A DNA stretch of 24,896 nt, from positions 1 through 24,896 of the IMG/VR virus record IMGVR_UViG_3300021956_000075; one strand, given 5' to 3'. The translations under genes were made by a program, and so were the position numbers. The stretch is from a virus. The notes under the pieces were generated by a model that was given only the letters and a program-made list of their open reading frames with translations, was not told where the DNA came from and did no database searches. Of this stretch, positions 8,351 through 24,896 are shown piece by piece; position 1 is the stretch's first letter; the number at the start of each line of letters is the position of its first letter.

Positions 8351-8479
8351 TTAACGACCTTGACCTAGATACTTTTTAGGTTTCTGAGATTTTGGACCGT
8401 AACTCTTCTTATATTTTCCTCTTTTTCTTTTACCAAAGGTTATTTTTACTGAACCTGTGGATGATTTACTTTTTGCCAT
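8351..8479 (-). CDS. 42-residue basic protein
   Basis: ATG at 8479-8477, TAA at 8353-8351. The start shares its A with the stop of the tape measure gene (TAATG), so translation is probably coupled. The product is extremely basic, with about 15 Lys/Arg in 42: it begins MAKSKSSTGSVKITFGKRKR and ends KPKKYLGQGR. Small Lys/Arg-rich proteins with this kind of FGKRKRGKYKKSYGPK core and GQGR tail occur among structural genes of other uncultured phages as far as I recall. It may bind DNA in the head or the interior of a head protein. No function is established. Confidence 0.75.
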   Translation of the reverse strand: MAKSKSSTGSVKITFGKRKRGKYKKSYGPKSQKPKKYLGQGR

Positions 8480-11415
8480 TATAGTGTACTTAAATCTTTT
8501 AGACGGGATTGTTTTTCCATCTCAGTTTTCATATCGTTAGATACTACATAACTTTTCATTATTATTGGTTTGCTTTCCTCAGCAACATTTTGTGATTTTG
8601 GATTGTCATAGTAAGGTTTTCCGATACCATTAACGAATGATTTTCCACCACCCATTTGGTTCATCATACTTAACATCGGGGCGAAAGCCGTAACTGCACC
8701 TCTTGTCATTATCGCCTCACCACCTTCTGCGGTAATTGGAACACCACCTTGGGCATGTCTTGGACCTTCAATATAACCACCATCACCATAGTTTCTACCT
8801 AATGTATTACCACTACTTCCTGAACCACTTCCTGATCCTCCACCACCGTTAAATTCTGTTGAATCAATCTTCTTAATTTGAACTGCGGTCATAATACCTA
8901 ACGCTGCCGCGTTTGCAATCTTAACAATCCAGTCAAATGGTGATGGTAAAGTTGATGGTTGAGTTAATATGTTAATAATACCTGAGGCTGCCGATAATAA
9001 AGCTGCCGCCTTTTGATACTTTTTACTTTGTTCAAACGCCGCCTTTCTTTCCTCCATCGTCTTCTTGGAATTTTCACTTTCCAATTGATAGACTGCGGCC
9101 AAGGCGTTTGCTACGTTTGCAAAACTATCCGCCATCGCGGTTGCAACACTTGCATACGCTTGAATTTCTTGGTTGGTAATTTCTTTTAATTTTGCGGCAT
9201 GTTCTAATTCAATTAACTCAAGTTCTTGGGCGTTATCACCTGCGGCTTTCTTTCTTGCTTCATACGCCATATCCTCAGCCAATCTGAGGTCTTTAAACAT
9301 TTCACCATAATGTTTCTTTTCGGTGTCAGCCCTTCTTGTAAAGTAATCAGAAGCATATTGTAATTGACTTGCGTTAATCATCGCCATTTTCTTATCATGA
9401 TCCTTTTTAAGGTTTTCCAACATTTCAAAATTTAGTTGATATTCCTTTTGTTGTGTTGCATAATTTGCGTTTTCTAAATCTCTTTGTTTGTTGAAAAAGG
9501 CTTGAGTATTTTCATATTCACCATCCAATCCTTTTTGGATTAAACTTTCTTTAGATTGTAATCTTTCTACTTCTAAATCAAGACTTGCTTTATATTGTTT
9601 TGTTCTAGCGTTTGCAATTGCGTTTGCGTTTCCATCCGCCAATTTCATTTCTTTTTCAAATTCAGAATTGATTTTATCTTTTCTTGCTTGAAAATATTCT
9701 TCACTGGCCTTTCCTGCCTCTGTGGCCAATCTATCATTCTTATCAATTTCTTGTTGAATTATCCAAGCGGCATATTGAAGTTCTTGTTTTCTTTCGTTTT
9801 CATATGCTAAGGCCAATTCAGCTGCTTGTTTTTCTTTCGCCTTTCTATAAACCTCAGAGTTTTCACCTTGTTGACGTTTAATTTCATCAAGTTCAACTCT
9901 ATGTTGTTCTTTTAATCTTGCAATTGCAATAGTTGCGTTTTGTAGATTTTTTGCTTCTTCATCTTTAAGACCTTCTGCAATTGCGGTCATTTTATCAAGT
10001 TGGAACTGATTAATTAATTTAATATCTTCTCTGTTCCATTCTTTTTCTTGTTTACTTAATTCAGCTTTTGTTAATAAATTTTGACTTATTGCTTTTTTGT
10101 TTGCATAATCTCTTCTTTTCTTTTCTTCATCTATAGATGCCTCAAGCGCTTCAATTGTATCTTTATTACCAACTGCATTAATCTTTTTTAATTCTTTTAT
10201 AAGTACCATTTTAGTGACAATTCTACCGTTATAAAATTTCATTTCACTTGCGGCTTGTCTAATTCTATCTTGATCAGTTTCATGCGCATTGGCCCTTGCA
10301 GCTTCCCTTTCATTTTTATATCCTGCAATTGTTGCAACTTGTTTTTGATTTTCTAATTCATTATCAATATCTCTGAATTCTTTTCCTTGGGCGTTTTTTA
10401 AATCTCTTAAAGCTGCCCTTTGAGTTAATTGTAAATTAAATAATTCTTTTTGTTTTTGTTCAGTTGTTTTAGAATCATCATCAAGTAATTCTTTTTTCTT
10501 TTTGTTATAATCTAATTGAAGATTTATTAATTCTGTGTAATTTTTGGATAAAAATGAACCATATCCACTTAATAATGATTCTTGTTTTTTAATCTGTCTT
10601 TCTAAATCTAATGACATTTGGGCCATACCTTTACTGGTTGTACCAAAAGCTTGGGCTAAACTTCCTAATACTACCGCAACAACTTCAATTGCTTTAACAA
10701 AAACACCTAATATGAAATCAGTAAGGGGTTTTAAAGCATCAAATAAAGCACTAACCGCATCACCAATACTTGCAAACGCATCTTGAAGTGGTTTAAATGA
10801 TTTTGCTGCCCTCATAACTGCCGCCACAACAACACCTAATATTAATACTAAAGCACCAATACCTGACGCTACAATTGCGTTTTGTAAAGCAGGAAACATT
10901 TCTGTCAAACTACCTATCGCAGATTTTGCACTACCAGTTATACTTTCTAAAGATTGCATAGATTGTCCAATTTTACCAATTGGACCAGGAATATTACTCA
11001 AAGCATCATCAAGTTTTTGAGTACTTCTTTGCATCTCTTCTTGTTTTTCTCTTAAAGAAATAATTTGCGCCTCATTATCTTTATATGCTTGACTTGCTTT
11101 CTGACCAGATTCTGCTAAGGCCACATTCGCCTTTTCTAATTCTCTGATTTGGGTTCTGTAAGATTTTACTTTACCCTCACCATCTTCTATATCATCATTA
11201 AACCCTTGAACAGATTTTCTTGCATCTTTCCAAGCTTTATCCGCAGTCTTAATTTCATTGGATAAAACCTTATATCTTGGGTCATTTAAAGGTAAGGCTT
11301 GTAAATCAGTCTTAGCTTGTTTAATAACCTTATCAAAGTCCTTAAACGAAATCTTAGCTAAATCTAATTGTTTACCATTAACCTTTATATCAAAATTTAT
11401 ATCTTTTGTTGCCAT
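8479..11415 (-). CDS. Tail tape measure protein
   Basis: A 978-residue protein dominated by long charged helices (about 1-165 and 270-790, with repeated Lys/Glu/Ala heptads). Hydrophobic segments occur near 181-201 (GIGALVLILGVVVAAVM), 231-255 and 801-845, as is usual for tape measures, which fill the tail lumen and insert in the host membrane on injection. The C-terminus carries a Gly/Ser linker and then GGYIEGPRHAQGGVPITAEGGEAIMTRGAV (about 878-910), a tail motif common in Bacteroidota phage tape measures. If the usual relation of about 1.5 angstrom per residue holds, the tail would be roughly 150 nm long. It is translationally coupled to the basic 42-residue gene. Confidence 0.9.
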   Translation of the reverse strand: MATKDINFDIKVNGKQLDLAKISFKDFDKVIKQAKTDLQALPLNDPRYKVLSNEIKTADKAWKDARKSVQGFNDDIEDGEGKVKSYRTQIRELEKANVALAESGQKASQAYKDNEAQIISLREKQEEMQRSTQKLDDALSNIPGPIGKIGQSMQSLESITGSAKSAIGSLTEMFPALQNAIVASGIGALVLILGVVVAAVMRAAKSFKPLQDAFASIGDAVSALFDALKPLTDFILGVFVKAIEVVAVVLGSLAQAFGTTSKGMAQMSLDLERQIKKQESLLSGYGSFLSKNYTELINLQLDYNKKKKELLDDDSKTTEQKQKELFNLQLTQRAALRDLKNAQGKEFRDIDNELENQKQVATIAGYKNEREAARANAHETDQDRIRQAASEMKFYNGRIVTKMVLIKELKKINAVGNKDTIEALEASIDEEKKRRDYANKKAISQNLLTKAELSKQEKEWNREDIKLINQFQLDKMTAIAEGLKDEEAKNLQNATIAIARLKEQHRVELDEIKRQQGENSEVYRKAKEKQAAELALAYENERKQELQYAAWIIQQEIDKNDRLATEAGKASEEYFQARKDKINSEFEKEMKLADGNANAIANARTKQYKASLDLEVERLQSKESLIQKGLDGEYENTQAFFNKQRDLENANYATQQKEYQLNFEMLENLKKDHDKKMAMINASQLQYASDYFTRRADTEKKHYGEMFKDLRLAEDMAYEARKKAAGDNAQELELIELEHAAKLKEITNQEIQAYASVATAMADSFANVANALAAVYQLESENSKKTMEERKAAFEQSKKYQKAAALLSAASGIINILTQPSTLPSPFDWIVKIANAAALGIMTAVQIKKIDSTEFNGGGGSGSGSGSSGNTLGRNYGDGGYIEGPRHAQGGVPITAEGGEAIMTRGAVTAFAPMLSMMNQMGGGKSFVNGIGKPYYDNPKSQNVAEESKPIIMKSYVVSNDMKTEMEKQSRLKDLSTL

Positions 11416-13762: not shown

Positions 13763-16700
13763 TTACAATCCACAAAGTGAACTACAGTTATTTGTTCCCA
13801 ATCCACTACAATCAGTATATAAGTAAGGTCCACCTGTTCCAGTACCTGCCACATTTAATATGTAACCATTAATATTGTCAAAATAGAACTTACCACCAAT
13901 CATAACTACAGGGTTTGCAATTTGGATTGTTTCTACATAACTACATGGTCCTGTTGGACTTTCACATTCATATCTATCCGCTGTATATAATTGATATGAT
14001 ATACCTGATGGAGTTGGTGTTTGAGTTGGTGTAACTGTTGGAGTTGGTGTAATTGAACTACATAATGTTAAATTCGATACATAACCTCCACCACTAATTG
14101 TAGCAGCATAGAAACTACCACTGAAATATATTCTATAATAGTTGTCATTACCCACAAATGTCGTAGTTAATCCAATATTGGTATAAAGTATATCACCATT
14201 AGATAAAGTGTCACCAGGTCCAATATAAACCGTACCATTTGGATAGTTAGTATCCGCACAAGCTAAAGCTGCACTACTAAATGTTGCACCACTATAAATT
14301 CCCACACCTACAGGAGGTAATGATGGAGTTGGTGTTGCGGTTGGAGTTGGAGGAGTACATGATGATTCACCATATAATGAACCACTTACAGATACCCACC
14401 AATTAGTTCCATTTGAATATCTACCATTTGTTGCTGGTGTTGTTAATCCATAATCACTATAAATTGCTGAACCATTTGTTAATGAAGCAAATGGTGTTAA
14501 ACTATAAACTGTTACCCTATCAAATACTCCATAATTGTAACAAGCTTGATAAGGGTCACTCGCATCAAATCCTAAATTTATTGTATAAATTGGAAGTGTT
14601 GTTTGTGTCGGTGTCTGAGTTGGAGTTGGTGTATTTGTTGGCGTAGCACCTGGTGTACCCGTATTAGTAGGAGTCACCGTATTTGTTGGTGTAGGAGTTG
14701 GAGTACCAGTCGGTGTTGCACCTATTGTTTGAGTAGGCGTAGGAGTTGGTGTTCCTGTTGGTGTTTTAGTAGGAGTCGGAGTCGGTGTATTTTGTATACA
14801 CTGACCAAAGTAAATAGATGAACCTGTTGTTATACCCCAAGTTGTTGCTGTTGTATAAAACTCATCACAATTATTAAATAAGTTAGTTCCTTGTCTTTGT
14901 GAATCAGAACTTATCCAAAACGTTGGCATGTTAAATTGGAAAGGACCATACGGTTGTGAATAAATATTATTCCTCAACGTATCGTTTGTCCAATCTGAAC
15001 CAGTTGAATTATAAGTGTCTTCATCTACTTCATACATATTGTATGGACAATAAACAGTTGTACTTCCTTGGATATACTTAAATGTTGAAGTGAATCCTGT
15101 AGTTTGTCCAACTAAAGAACCAACACTATGATCATAATATATTGACCAACCGAAATTAGTATCTAAAATACTTGGGTTAGTGAAATCTGTTTTAAATTTA
15201 AATGTACAGTCATTCAATCCATCACAATAGTCATACATAAAGTATCTTGTTGGATATTGTTTAACCGCACCGTTAAATTGGATTAATTCTACCTTAGTTA
15301 ATTCTCTGTTGGTAAGATTAAATCCTTCAATCTTTGATACCACAAAGTATTGTTCGTTAATCTTAATCAAATCTTCAGGACTAAAGTTCTTTAAGTCTGA
15401 ATAACTTAAATCAAAATTACCAGTCAATACTCTGGTATTTGGATTATATATATTTGTCACTCTATTTTGATAGAATGTTGTATAAGCGTCGTTTTCTGTG
15501 TAGGTGTTAAATGTTTGAACACCAATTATATCTGTAGGTAATTCCGAATTAAATAAAATACACTGACTATCATTATTAATCTTATCTGCGTCAGATAAAC
15601 CCATCGGCATCGTATGTGAAATTACAGGGATACGGTCAAATTGATTATATGTTGAACCTGATGAGTTAGATATAAAAGTCAAATATGTTTTATAAGCTTT
15701 TGAAGCATCATATGTTTCACCCACAATATCTAAGAATGGATTGAAACAACCTAACCACCAAAATAATTTTGGTTTTGTTTTAACTCCTTTATATGTCCAA
15801 GTAACTTTTGTTGAGTTACCTGAAGGTTGTTCTGAACTTGAACCAACATAATTAATACCTAATGGTAAGTTTATATTGGCGTTTGGGGCTGTACCTGCTG
15901 TATCCCACTGACGAATTAACTCAGGACCAAATATGGTTTGAATCTTTTTTTCGTTTGATTTAAAACTTGTTGGACCATAGTAGTTGTTAACACCATATGT
16001 TCTATTAACATTTGTTTTAAATAACTTATTTCCTTCGTCATTATCTTCTGCGTCTGTGAATATGATTTGACTTTCAATAAAATCTAACGCAGGTTGAACT
16101 GTGAATCCTTTATCAAAACTAATTTTATCTGACCAATTATGTACCACACCTGTTCCAATAAAGAAATCATATGGTTCAATACGGATATTGGTTGGGTCAT
16201 TTGGATCAGGGATTAATATTAAATTAAATTTCTTTGCAATTGATGATAATATATCAATCTGTTTTATATTTTGATCAATAACCAAACTAAAATCCACAAA
16301 GTCACCATCAACGAATTGAACACTACTTCCAACTGGTTTTGGTAGGTAACTTAAAGGACCTGGCGATACTGTTACATCTGCAGTACCACCAACAACATCG
16401 TATGTATCAGTTAATGTTTTACCAGATATACCTGATGGAATTACTTCGTCTTGATAATAATAATATTCACCATACGGGTCATATATTTCAAATGAAACAT
16501 TAATATCTGTTGAACAATAACATGGAACACCTGTTCCTAATTTACAAACAACTGCATAAGCTTTACTTCCATCTTGAACAAATATAATTTCAACACCTTC
16601 TGGTGGTAAAACAGGAATTTCATATATGGTCCATGAAAATTTTGTATTATCTGAACTATAAAATCCATATAGATATAATGTTTTCATCCATGGAGTATTA

Positions 16701-17521
16701 AAGAAATCAGATGTGATTCTATATCCATAACTTTTAAACATTAATTGTAATAAACCCCACATACTTAAACCAGGTTTTAATTGGTTGTCATATGGTCCTT
16801 GTGTTGGTGAGTTTAATCTATATTGTTGAACACCTGCGGAATATGCTGCTGATAATGAAGCATAAGAACCTAATGGTGATGTTGAAGTAAATAATCTACT
16901 TCTTTCTACAATAGTACCACCACTGAAATTAACTGTATCCCCTGTATAATTGTATCCATTATGTACAATTGGGTAAAAGTACATATTAGGTGTTTCACCC
17001 GATAATGAAAAGTTGGTATAATCAAATCCACTTGTTACGTTATTTAAATTAAAAGTATGATTGAAAACTAATTCACCATTTATTCCTTCGAAAGGTAAAT
17101 CTTTTAATAAATTGTTACCCATCGTACCATACAAGTCTGCGACAGTTGAAAACAAAGTCACATCGTACTCAATCTTTGAGTTTAAGACGTTAACTTTATT
17201 CAACTTCATGAATCCTGTAAAGAAAGGTTCATCGTTGATTAGAACCCAACAAGGAACTCGTTTAGTCGGATCAAAATATAATGACTGACTATCTACATTA
17301 AAGTAACTTTCAAAAAATGAATTGTTTGTTTTTGAACCTGGCAATAAAACTCCTACAGAAAAATCTGAATTTCTTTTTCCAATATCACCCAATTCTGCAA
17401 AGGATTTATTAATCGATAGTGGGATACTTGAATATATGTCTAAGACTTGATATTCAGTTTGACCACTAATTGAACCTGGTATATTTGTTTGTACTCTAAG
17501 TACGGTTTGTTGTTGTGACAT
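13763..17521 (-). CDS. Large tail-tip/baseplate protein with C-terminal adhesin modules
   Basis: A 1252-residue protein. The N-terminal 900 residues resemble tail-tip or baseplate hub proteins of Bacteroidota phages: an early block [44 protein letters not shown], a region [20 protein letters not shown], and [22 protein letters not shown]. The C-terminus is modular: a linker (about 907-977) of Pro-Thr repeats, module A (about 978-1054), a short linker, module B (about 1069-1157), a linker, and module C (about 1173-1252). A and B are related to each other (AC...TVY...L.NG..IY...GLTT). The gene is joined to its upstream neighbour by TAATATG. It probably both builds the tail tip and displays host-binding domains. 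Confidence 0.7.
14590..14800 (-). repeat. Pro-Thr codon repeat tract
   Basis: Degenerate tandem repeats encoding PTPT, PTNT and GTPTPT units, residues about 907-977 of the 1252-residue protein. Shorter tracts of the same kind lie at about 14315-14355 and 14005-14055 between its C-terminal modules. Confidence 0.85.
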
Positions 17522-22332: not shown

Positions 22333-23340
22333 TTATACATTATCCCACTGTTCTTTTACTTTACGCCATAACTCATCCAATTCTTCCCATGTTAAATTAG
22401 GGGAGAAGTTTGACATAGGTAATACACATCGGTTATAATCAAATTTCTGTTGAATAGATATGGTAAACGTCCAACCTGCTAATACTGACTCTGTTTCTTC
22501 TAACCAAGGTTCAAGATTTGCATCCCATTCAACTTCGTAATCAGATAAATAAGCTTTTGAATAAAAGTCTTTACAGATTTCCAAACAATCCGATAATACA
22601 TCTATTTGATTTGAATAATCTTCTTCTATCTTATCACATACTGTAACCTTCCAAGTTATATGCATATGATTTGGATTTAATCTACTTTTTTCTGGTGTAA
22701 AATAGATTCTCGGGTACTTCGGTTCAACCTTCGATTCAATATCGTTAGTTAACTGATACATGTCACCGAATCCAAAACTTCTAAGTTGTCTATGTGCTTG
22801 TGCAAACGCCCTCCAATCTTGTAATATTTGATAATAACTTGAAAAACTTTCGTCTTGAGGGAAGTTAAAACCTGGTGTAATTGGTAAATCACATGAGTTA
22901 TAGTCGAATGGTGCGGACATTTTAATGTGCATCGTCCATCCACCTAATACTGTTTCAAATCTTTCAGTGAATGGATGACAATCTGGTTCCCAATCACCTA
23001 CTATTATCTTGGAAAAATCCCCTTGTTGTGAGGTATAAGACTGCCAAAATACGGTCCAAACGTCTTGAATTATTTCTAATGTATCACTTAATACCTCATC
23101 TAAGTTTGTTAAATCATCTTCAACCTTATCATAAACCATAACTGCGAAGTTATAATGTATGTGGTTTTGATTAAATTCAACATTTTGAGGTAATAGGTAC
23201 AATCTGGTGTACTTCGGTTCCTTTTTTGTATCTATATCGTTAGTAAGTTGCGTAAAATCTCCCACCCCAAACGATTTAATCTGTTCATGGTGGTAAGCAA
23301 TACTACTAAAATAAGTTACGAGTTGTTTATAGTCTAACAT
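22333..23340 (-). CDS. Internally duplicated tail-completion-like protein
   Basis: A 335-residue protein made of two homologous halves, about 6-154 and 170-309. Matching blocks are FGVGDFTQLTNDIDTKKEPKY / FGFGDMYQLTNDIESKVEPKY, NQNHIHYNFAVMVYDKVEDD / NPNHMHITWKVTVCDKIEED, DEVLSDTLEIIQD / IDVLSDCLEICKD, and VLGGWTMHI / VLAGWTFTI with FDYNSCDLPI / FDYNRCVLPM. The final VLAGW-strand unit is typical of tail terminator and minor tail proteins that form a ring at the tail end. Halves have diverged, so the duplication is old. A single polypeptide could act as a pseudo-dimer, giving a ring with half the usual number of chains. It sits between the putative chaperone and the fibre. Confidence 0.6.
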   Translation of the reverse strand: MLDYKQLVTYFSSIAYHHEQIKSFGVGDFTQLTNDIDTKKEPKYTRLYLLPQNVEFNQNHIHYNFAVMVYDKVEDDLTNLDEVLSDTLEIIQDVWTVFWQSYTSQQGDFSKIIVGDWEPDCHPFTERFETVLGGWTMHIKMSAPFDYNSCDLPITPGFNFPQDESFSSYYQILQDWRAFAQAHRQLRSFGFGDMYQLTNDIESKVEPKYPRIYFTPEKSRLNPNHMHITWKVTVCDKIEEDYSNQIDVLSDCLEICKDFYSKAYLSDYEVEWDANLEPWLEETESVLAGWTFTISIQQKFDYNRCVLPMSNFSPNLTWEELDELWRKVKEQWDNV

Positions 23341-23384: not shown

Positions 23385-23681
23385 TTAAAATCCTCTCATT
23401 GCTTTTTTATGAAGTCTTTCCTGTTCTTTGTCATACTCAACCAGATAAACCAGTTGATTCATTACTTCGAGGATTTTTTTACTAAAGATTTCATTGTGTG
23501 TTTCAATTCGGTTTCCTGTAACTTTATTAATAACAACGTACCATCCGAATCTTTTTTCAAAGCTAACTTCCATAGGGTTTTCCAATTCCTTGCTATGAAC
23601 TTCAGACTCTCCCATTCCTTCATTATCCGATTCTTCAAAGATAGTTGGGTATAAGTCGAGTACCTCTTTCCGAAGTTGATA
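23385..23681 (-). CDS. -1 frame extension of the putative tail chaperone (after T9 slip site)
   Basis: Reading in the -1 frame from the T9 run gives 98 uninterrupted codons starting YQLRKEVLDLYPTIFEESD and ending KKAMRGF, stop at 23387-23385. Just upstream the same frame is closed by TGA and TAG, so this frame can be reached only by a shift at or very near the T9 run, or by internal initiation at the ATG at 23615. Joined to residues 1-177 of the upstream frame it makes a 275-residue protein. It has an ordinary, charged, helical composition and looks more like a real protein end than the zero-frame tail. It could instead reflect a missed base in the homopolymer. Confidence 0.7.
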   Translation of the reverse strand, partial: YQLRKEVLDLYPTIFEESDNEGMGESEVHSKELENPMEVSFEKRFGWYVVINKVTGNRIETHNEIFSKKILEVMNQLVYLVEYDKEQERLHKKAMRGF

Positions 23682-24211
23682 AAAAAAAACTGTCCACCTA
23701 ACGCGAACCTAATATCAAGTTTGGATTTGAAGAGTTCCGCCCTATCATTTAATGTGTCTTGATTGTACTTTTCAATCTTATAATTGTGTTTAGACTTTTC
23801 ACTTACGATTGGTCTATACATTATGGCGGTGATAATATGTAGATAATCCATCACCTCTTCTGGTTTCTTTGTCAACAAAGTATCCAAATCCACAAACTCT
23901 GCAAATGTAATTTCTTTGTATGATGGTAAGTAACCATATTCAACACCATCCAATTTAAATCTATCTGTGAATGTGTATGGTGGTCTTGGGACCATGGCGA
24001 AGATTGATGTGGCTAAGAAATCTACTTTGTGATTCTCCGCTTCCAATAATGTTTCCATAGGACAATCTGAAATTAGATTAACCACCTTTGCTTTCATATA
24101 CTCATCCTCAAACAAATCTTTTATTTTAAAAATCTTAACGTAATCACCAATTGATATATAATCAGGTAATTCATAATCCTTACCGTTTAAACTAAATTCT
24201 ACTACTGCCAT
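23462..24211 (-). CDS. Putative tail assembly chaperone, zero frame
   Basis: A 249-residue product starting at the ATG at 24211-24209, five bases after the terminase stop; a TTG 12 bases earlier overlaps that stop and is less likely. The context AAAATTATG matches the capsid and scaffold genes. Residues 1-177 contain FSLNGKDYELPDYISIGDYV, FKLDGVEYGYLPSYKEITFAEFVDLDTL, and IITAIMYRPIV, a pattern I associate with chaperone-like proteins of uncultured phages. At residues 175-177 a T9 run (23689-23681) encodes FFF. After it the zero frame gives 72 basic, Lys-rich residues of unconvincing composition, while the -1 frame is open for 98 codons. This layout is like the gpG/gpGT pair of lambda-type tail chaperones. 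Confidence 0.7.
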   Translation of the reverse strand: MAVVEFSLNGKDYELPDYISIGDYVKIFKIKDLFEDEYMKAKVVNLISDCPMETLLEAENHKVDFLATSIFAMVPRPPYTFTDRFKLDGVEYGYLPSYKEITFAEFVDLDTLLTKKPEEVMDYLHIITAIMYRPIVSEKSKHNYKIEKYNQDTLNDRAELFKSKLDIRFALGGQFFFINFGKRYSTYTQLSLKNRIMKEWESLKFIARNWKTLWKLALKKDSDGTLLLIKLQETELKHTMKSLVKKSSK

Positions 24212-24215
24212 AATT

Positions 24216-24896
24216 TTATGCAAAGGCTATTGCGTAACGCCCTGTTGATTTTAAATTTTTTAGTTCCCAATACATCTTCATCATAAGACTATCCGATAAG
24301 TCAGGTGATTTACCCAATATCTTTTTCATCTCATCTTTCGATTGTACTGCTACTTTATTGTCTTTATCTATGTCTTTTAATTTAACACTTAATAATTCCT
24401 GTGTCAAGTCATCTACTATGGTTGGGTCCAATATGTTTAAACTTATCTTCCCTTCCTTAAACATCTCAGATAGTTTTACATAACACTGAGATTTTAGATT
24501 GATGAAGTTTTGGTCATGTAACGCTTTGGAATTATTCACAAAGTTTACACATCCTTTTAACTGATCCGCTACACCGCCTCCAACGCCATCACTATCCACA
24601 ATTACATTATTAATATGTATCCCGTATTTCTGTATTAAAGTCTTTATTTCGGACGATAATTCTGTAGTTGATAGTTTGGTATAGACAAGTATTTCTGTGA
24701 CCGTATTACCCACCCAAATCGTTACTACGGACCTATCACTACCAAACCTTGATACGTCTAATGATAAATACTTCTTGTCCGTTCCTTGTGGAACATTCTT
24801 GAATACACTTTCTGATATACTATCAAAGTCAAATAGACTATCTGATTCTTGTTGATAGTTCCAATCCCCTTCCAATAGTCTTCGTCTTTGTTGTGG
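24216..24896 (-). CDS. terL: Terminase large subunit, C-terminal nuclease part (cut by right window edge)
   Basis: The frame is open to the right edge (first codons PQQRRRLLEGDW) so the gene continues beyond the window; the ATPase half is outside. What is seen is the RuvC/RNase H-like nuclease domain that cuts concatemeric DNA at packaging: a first acidic strand LSLDVSRFGSDRSVVTIW, a second strand NNVIVDSDGVGGGVADQL, and a final acidic site in KILGKSPDLSDSLMM. All three acidic positions are present, so the nuclease looks intact. RRRLLEGDW is typical of the linker before the nuclease in TerL proteins. The stop is five bases before the next gene's ATG. Confidence 0.93.
   Translation of the reverse strand, partial: PQQRRRLLEGDWNYQQESDSLFDFDSISESVFKNVPQGTDKKYLSLDVSRFGSDRSVVTIWVGNTVTEILVYTKLSTTELSSEIKTLIQKYGIHINNVIVDSDGVGGGVADQLKGCVNFVNNSKALHDQNFINLKSQCYVKLSEMFKEGKISLNILDPTIVDDLTQELLSVKLKDIDKDNKVAVQSKDEMKKILGKSPDLSDSLMMKMYWELKNLKSTGRYAIAFA

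Follow-up and report, generated by a model that had tools for sequence, protein, structure and literature searches.

The window analysed here (24,896 nucleotides, positions 1 to 24,896 of the IMG/VR virus record IMGVR_UViG_3300021956_000075) carries on its minus strand, directly after the gene for the terminase large subunit, a gene that contains a run of nine T residues and that we refer to as the slip gene (Table 1). A preliminary description of this DNA, made from its letters, had read the minus strand around the run as CAG TTT TTT TTT ATC at 23692–23678, and rereading of the window confirmed this; a T9 run occurs only once on this strand. The two reading frames were also as described. The zero frame runs from the ATG at 24211 to a stop after 249 residues, and the −1 frame is open for 98 codons beyond the run and closed on its 5′ side by two stops, the nearer one at a distance of 28 nt from the run's end. 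Thus, the protein encoded up to the run (N part) could be continued either by a zero-frame tail or by a −1-frame C-terminal part (C part), the latter being acidic and predicted to be helical in its second half.

Table 1 Features of the slip gene and its neighbours in the window
Feature	Positions	Strand	Remarks
Terminase large subunit, C-terminal part (window edge)	24216..24896	−	directly upstream; PHROG 2, E 6.6e-12; synteny in relatives
Zero-frame coding sequence, 249 aa	23465..24211	−	stop 23462–23464; N part plus zero-frame tail
N part (177 aa) shared by the two predicted products	23681..24211	−	predicted mixed alpha/beta domain
T9 run	23681..23689	−	in-phase heptamer T_TTT_TTT (23687–23681) is what stays invariant
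−1 frame C-terminal part, 98 codons	23388..23681	−	stop 23385–23387; conserved in all homologues
Zero-frame C-terminal tail, 72 codons, basic	23465..23680	−	overlaps the −1 frame (dual-coding stretch)
g335, conserved downstream neighbour, 335 aa, looks internally duplicated	22333..23340	−	

The position of the slip gene after the terminase gene, which was part of the preliminary description, was borne out by the PHROG 2 match and by synteny, and relatives keep the same arrangement of terminase, slip gene and g335. The label "tail-completion-like" that had been given to g335 could not be confirmed; SFGVGDFTQLTNDI and SFGFGDMYQLTNDI are found in the two halves of this protein. A tape-measure-like ORF (8479–11415; PHROG tape measure, E about 5e-6) lies about 12 kb from the slip gene. 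Elsewhere on the minus strand of the window, a 1252-residue ORF at 13763–17521 has TPTPTPT-type repeats in its C-terminal third and is perhaps a tail or adhesion protein, and two nearby ORFs (58–516 and 763–1272) match overlapping parts of the HNH endonuclease PHROG 374, corresponding to either a duplication or a split gene.

Homologous loci were found in scans of IMG/VR that used the window protein or profiles as query, and these homologues together with the window comprised 153 distinct sequences in which N part and C part are both present. No homologue was detected by tblastn with the N part of the window against annotated phages, and a C-part profile search of bacterial genome contigs gave no match. 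Judged from the collected sequences, the slip gene belongs to a large family of phages from water that are uncultured. Two of the homologue contigs, G001 (57,002 b; loci L159–L161) and G002 (L162–L163), each contain two diverged tandem copies of the same structural module, the unit in G001 being about 32.2 kb; these are either tandem related phage genomes or two related circular phages joined by a cross-over in the assembly.

In all 153 distinct sequences the frame of the C part was shifted by −1 with respect to that of the N part, and T_TTT_TTT lay in phase at the N/C junction in all 153, a coincidence that, by this comparison, is far beyond chance. The new sequence in the −1 frame was conserved from the junction on and closed upstream of it. 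Homologues with one continuous frame and no slippery run, the pattern that the preliminary description had set against its own reading, were not present (0/153), and the homologues keep the run as well as both frames. The total length of the run varied: 134 sequences had T9, 7 had T10, 11 had T7 and a single one had T8. The preceding codon in T7 members was ACT, AGT, CGT or TCT, so that its first two bases varied and the third was always T. The T7 and T8 members were scattered over several lineages in a quickly built tree, and the relation of the N and C frames was −1 in T10 and T7 members alike.

These observations bear on the caution, raised in the preliminary description, that the true run might be T10 and a homopolymer undercall might have split a single continuous 275-residue frame. 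One extra T would indeed join the frames. However, the same −1 relation was found in 153 distinct sequences and in isolate phages (see below), it is shared by T10 and T7 members, and a read error cannot produce the selection on the zero-frame tail described below. The undercall is thereby refuted, and we consider it practically impossible.

The two slip codons were TTT in 148/148 sequences and TTC in none, whereas Phe codons elsewhere in the N part were 70% TTT and 30% TTC. Together with the conservation pattern of the heptamer, the exclusive use of TTT points to selection for a tandem −1 slip heptamer, and the proposal of a programmed −1 frameshift is strongly supported by the frame relation and the phased heptamer in the 153 sequences. 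A downstream RNA structure or an upstream stimulator is common at −1 frameshift sites but not obligatory. We observed no folded RNA signal around the slip in 60-nt windows starting from −60 to +180 (23 sequences, mean z near 0), and a downstream hairpin was dropped from consideration on this ground. A GG-rich stretch 15–18 nt 5′ of the slip end is conserved, but it lies over an invariant Gly codon.

Another way to reach both frames is slippage of the RNA polymerase on T9, which would produce mRNAs with 8, 10 or more U, each read faithfully by the ribosome. Poly-U/poly-A runs are prone to slippage in transcription (PMC4066793). The run has at least nine T in 141/153 sequences, and the 60-nt windows contained no RNA structure that would mark a ribosomal site, both of which are compatible with a slipping polymerase. 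However, the 12 members with only T7 or T8, found in several lineages, fit poorly, and what is invariant is the phased T_TTT_TTT, a feature relevant to tandem tRNA slippage and not to the polymerase. The phased heptamer therefore argues for ribosomal slippage, and transcriptional slippage appears unlikely to us.

In the ribosomal mechanism that we propose, most ribosomes would stay in the zero frame and produce the protein of 249 residues, whose tail is basic and helical. The remaining minority would slip back one base on U_UUU_UUU, by tandem re-pairing of tRNA-Phe in the P- and A-site, and produce a protein of 275 residues, whose C-terminus is acidic and helical in part. The two predicted proteins would share 177 residues and then differ completely, with both tails read from the same ~72 codons. 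We infer this product ratio, as we do the ribosomal rather than transcriptional origin of the slip.

The −1 part might also be a separate small gene that starts at an NTG codon inside the overlap, such as the ATG at 23615, because start-like codons are frequent at −1 codons 21–22 after the slip. The frequent NTG-G is, however, explained by a conserved Trp of the zero frame, and both the position and the codon of the candidate start vary among homologues. Internal initiation would also leave the invariant heptamer unexplained. Since conservation of the −1 frame begins at the slip itself, 5′ of any start codon (invariant F1, R5 and F16), whereas the start codon is not conserved in position, we rejected an internal start as very improbable.

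The zero frame past the slip has its own story of conservation. It was open for 60–99 codons in 149/149 measurable sequences, while the +1 frame, taken as a control, closed after a median of 14 codons. To evaluate this openness, synonymous codons of the −1 frame were redrawn from the N-part usage of the family in a first set of 84 sequences; a zero frame open for at least 60 codons then arose with a mean probability of 0.010. Permuting the codons of each sequence among themselves gave a mean p of 0.048 in the same 84. For the window alone permutation gave 0.15 and N-part usage 0.002. The openness is thus not decisive in the window alone but, on this codon-shuffling test, is decisive in the family.

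Substitution rates per site were computed from 42 disjoint close pairs. In the overlap, changes that are silent in the −1 frame and alter the zero frame occurred at 0.157 per site, compared with silent-change rates outside the overlap of 0.359 for the N part and 0.396 past the zero-frame stop. Conversely, changes that are silent in the zero frame and alter the −1 frame occurred at 0.126, versus 0.050 for those altering both. The ratio of position-1 to position-3 changes was 0.33 (0.29–0.37) in the N part, 0.64 (0.48–0.88) and 1.08 (0.86–1.34) in two parts of the overlap, and 0.41 (0.31–0.51) after the zero-frame stop. In addition, the zero-frame Trp W207 (numbered by A3, an alignment of 65 sequences used for the zero-frame protein) was kept in 95% while the overlying −1 residue varied among Met, Leu and Val, and a second zero-frame Trp column was kept in 85%.

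Codon shuffling, phase-specific divergence and the conservation of zero-frame Trp over a varying −1 frame agree in showing purifying selection on the proteins of both frames, confined to the overlap. The conserved slip heptamer, the conserved frames and the dual coding are all shown by comparison of the homologues. Accordingly, the frame that had been described as yielding a plain short product has the stated length of 249 residues, but its end is a tail that runs on under selection. Selection on both frames suggests that the shift chooses between two real C-termini, one basic with ~72 residues and the other acidic with 98 residues. The mean pI was 10.7 for the zero-frame tail and 5.2 for the −1 part, a contrast that may partly be a consequence of the genetic code. 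On balance, we favour the interpretation that the frameshift switches between two functional C-terminal domains of opposite charge, overprinted in the same 70 codons of a tail-assembly gene in a large aquatic phage lineage, rather than adding a domain to the minority of copies that would otherwise be truncated.

Relatives of the slip gene were also found in cultured marine phages. In Nonlabens phage P12024S the gene directly after terminase (P12024S_38) carries a T9 run, with its C part in the −1 frame, and profile comparison with the window family gave E 3.2e-5 for the C part and 7.7e-8 for the N part. P12024L has a nearly identical gene, also directly after terminase. The genes of both phages resemble that of the window in their place after terminase, the −1 C part and the same predicted fold, the T9 having been read in P12024S; the zero-frame tail of P12024S is only about 25 codons, as opposed to 72 in the window. 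The records of both phages annotate hypothetical proteins here and no frameshift, an example of how gene callers miss or mis-split the slip gene, and P12024S and P12024L are cultured relatives in which the use of the slip could be checked simply. The host of the window phage is probably a member of Bacteroidota, as judged only from its relation to P12024S.

Two other phages were compared. Flavobacterium phage 6H (locus L169) has at 10352–10927 on the minus strand a 191-aa gene that resembles the N part and looks like a distant relative of it. We set it aside as a slip-gene homologue, as its reading frames cannot be joined by a simple −1 slip; the following frame may hold the C part, perhaps with a different shift or a sequence error. 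In Polaribacter phage P12002L, inspection of the annotation gave no obvious counterpart after terminase.

Neither the N part nor the C part matched Pfam, PDB sequences or a named PHROG, and the best PHROG matches of the slip gene were families of unknown function. A structure model of the zero-frame protein (mean pLDDT 79) matched, in fold searches, predicted proteins of uncultured phages and a predicted protein of Nonlabens phage P12024S (E 5.3e-9). In the fold search of the PDB, 2ob9, a tail assembly chaperone from HK97, ranked second with a weak, non-significant score (E 0.85, prob 0.28).

By analogy, a tail-assembly chaperone is plausible as the most likely role of the protein. The frame and selection comparisons point to two products that share an N-terminus through a −1 shift, as in tail chaperones; the gene does not lie between tail-tube and tape-measure genes, nor does its zero frame end shortly after the slip, both of which would be typical of them. 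One isoform might coat the tape measure or another long protein, and the other might recruit a partner via its different C-terminus. A dual-coding frameshift gene of another kind, a T4 gp26/gp51-type baseplate-hub assembly factor or other head-tail assembly protein, is a lesser but real possibility, considering that the slip gene adjoins terminase far from the tape-measure-like gene and that BFVD gave weak matches to T4-type baseplate hub proteins. Those matches were, however, not significant (E 0.12 and 5.7), HK97 gp13 was the best phage match in the PDB fold search, and two products with identical N-termini arising from a −1 shift are a hallmark of tail chaperones. Taken as a whole, a late-operon assembly gene from an uncultured tailed phage, making two products by a ribosomal −1 slip and with a likely role as a tail chaperone, is probably the best explanation.

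The preliminary description had compared the layout with lambda G/GT. The comparison holds for the −1 shift and the two N-identical products, but not for the place after terminase or for the selected zero-frame tail of ~72 codons. As with lambda gpG/gpGT, a single N part in a late structural operon is followed by a −1 shift, and the shifted product would be longer and carry a different C-terminal domain. Lambda G/T, however, lies between V and H. The lambda shift is placed near the 3′ end of g in a review (PMC5009743), and according to the lambda record no more than 19 bases are shared between T and the end of G, whereas the zero frame of the window continues for 72 codons under selection. P2 gpE and gpE+E′ are likewise two tail proteins with the same N-terminus made by a −1 shift, from a gene located between the tail tube and tail-length genes; in contrast to the window, P2 E ends 20 bases past the annotated shift site and has no long second tail. 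The resemblance of the modelled protein to HK97 gp13 (2ob9) is a weak, non-significant one in fold, without a sequence match. Our search of the literature for a selected dual-coding overlap in a tail-assembly gene found none, which is not proof of novelty. In lambda G/T and P2 E/E′ about 20 bases separate the switch from the zero-frame stop and the unshifted product is approximately the shared part alone; in the gene of the window the comparative data indicate that both C-termini matter, suggesting overprinting through a slip site in a dsDNA phage.
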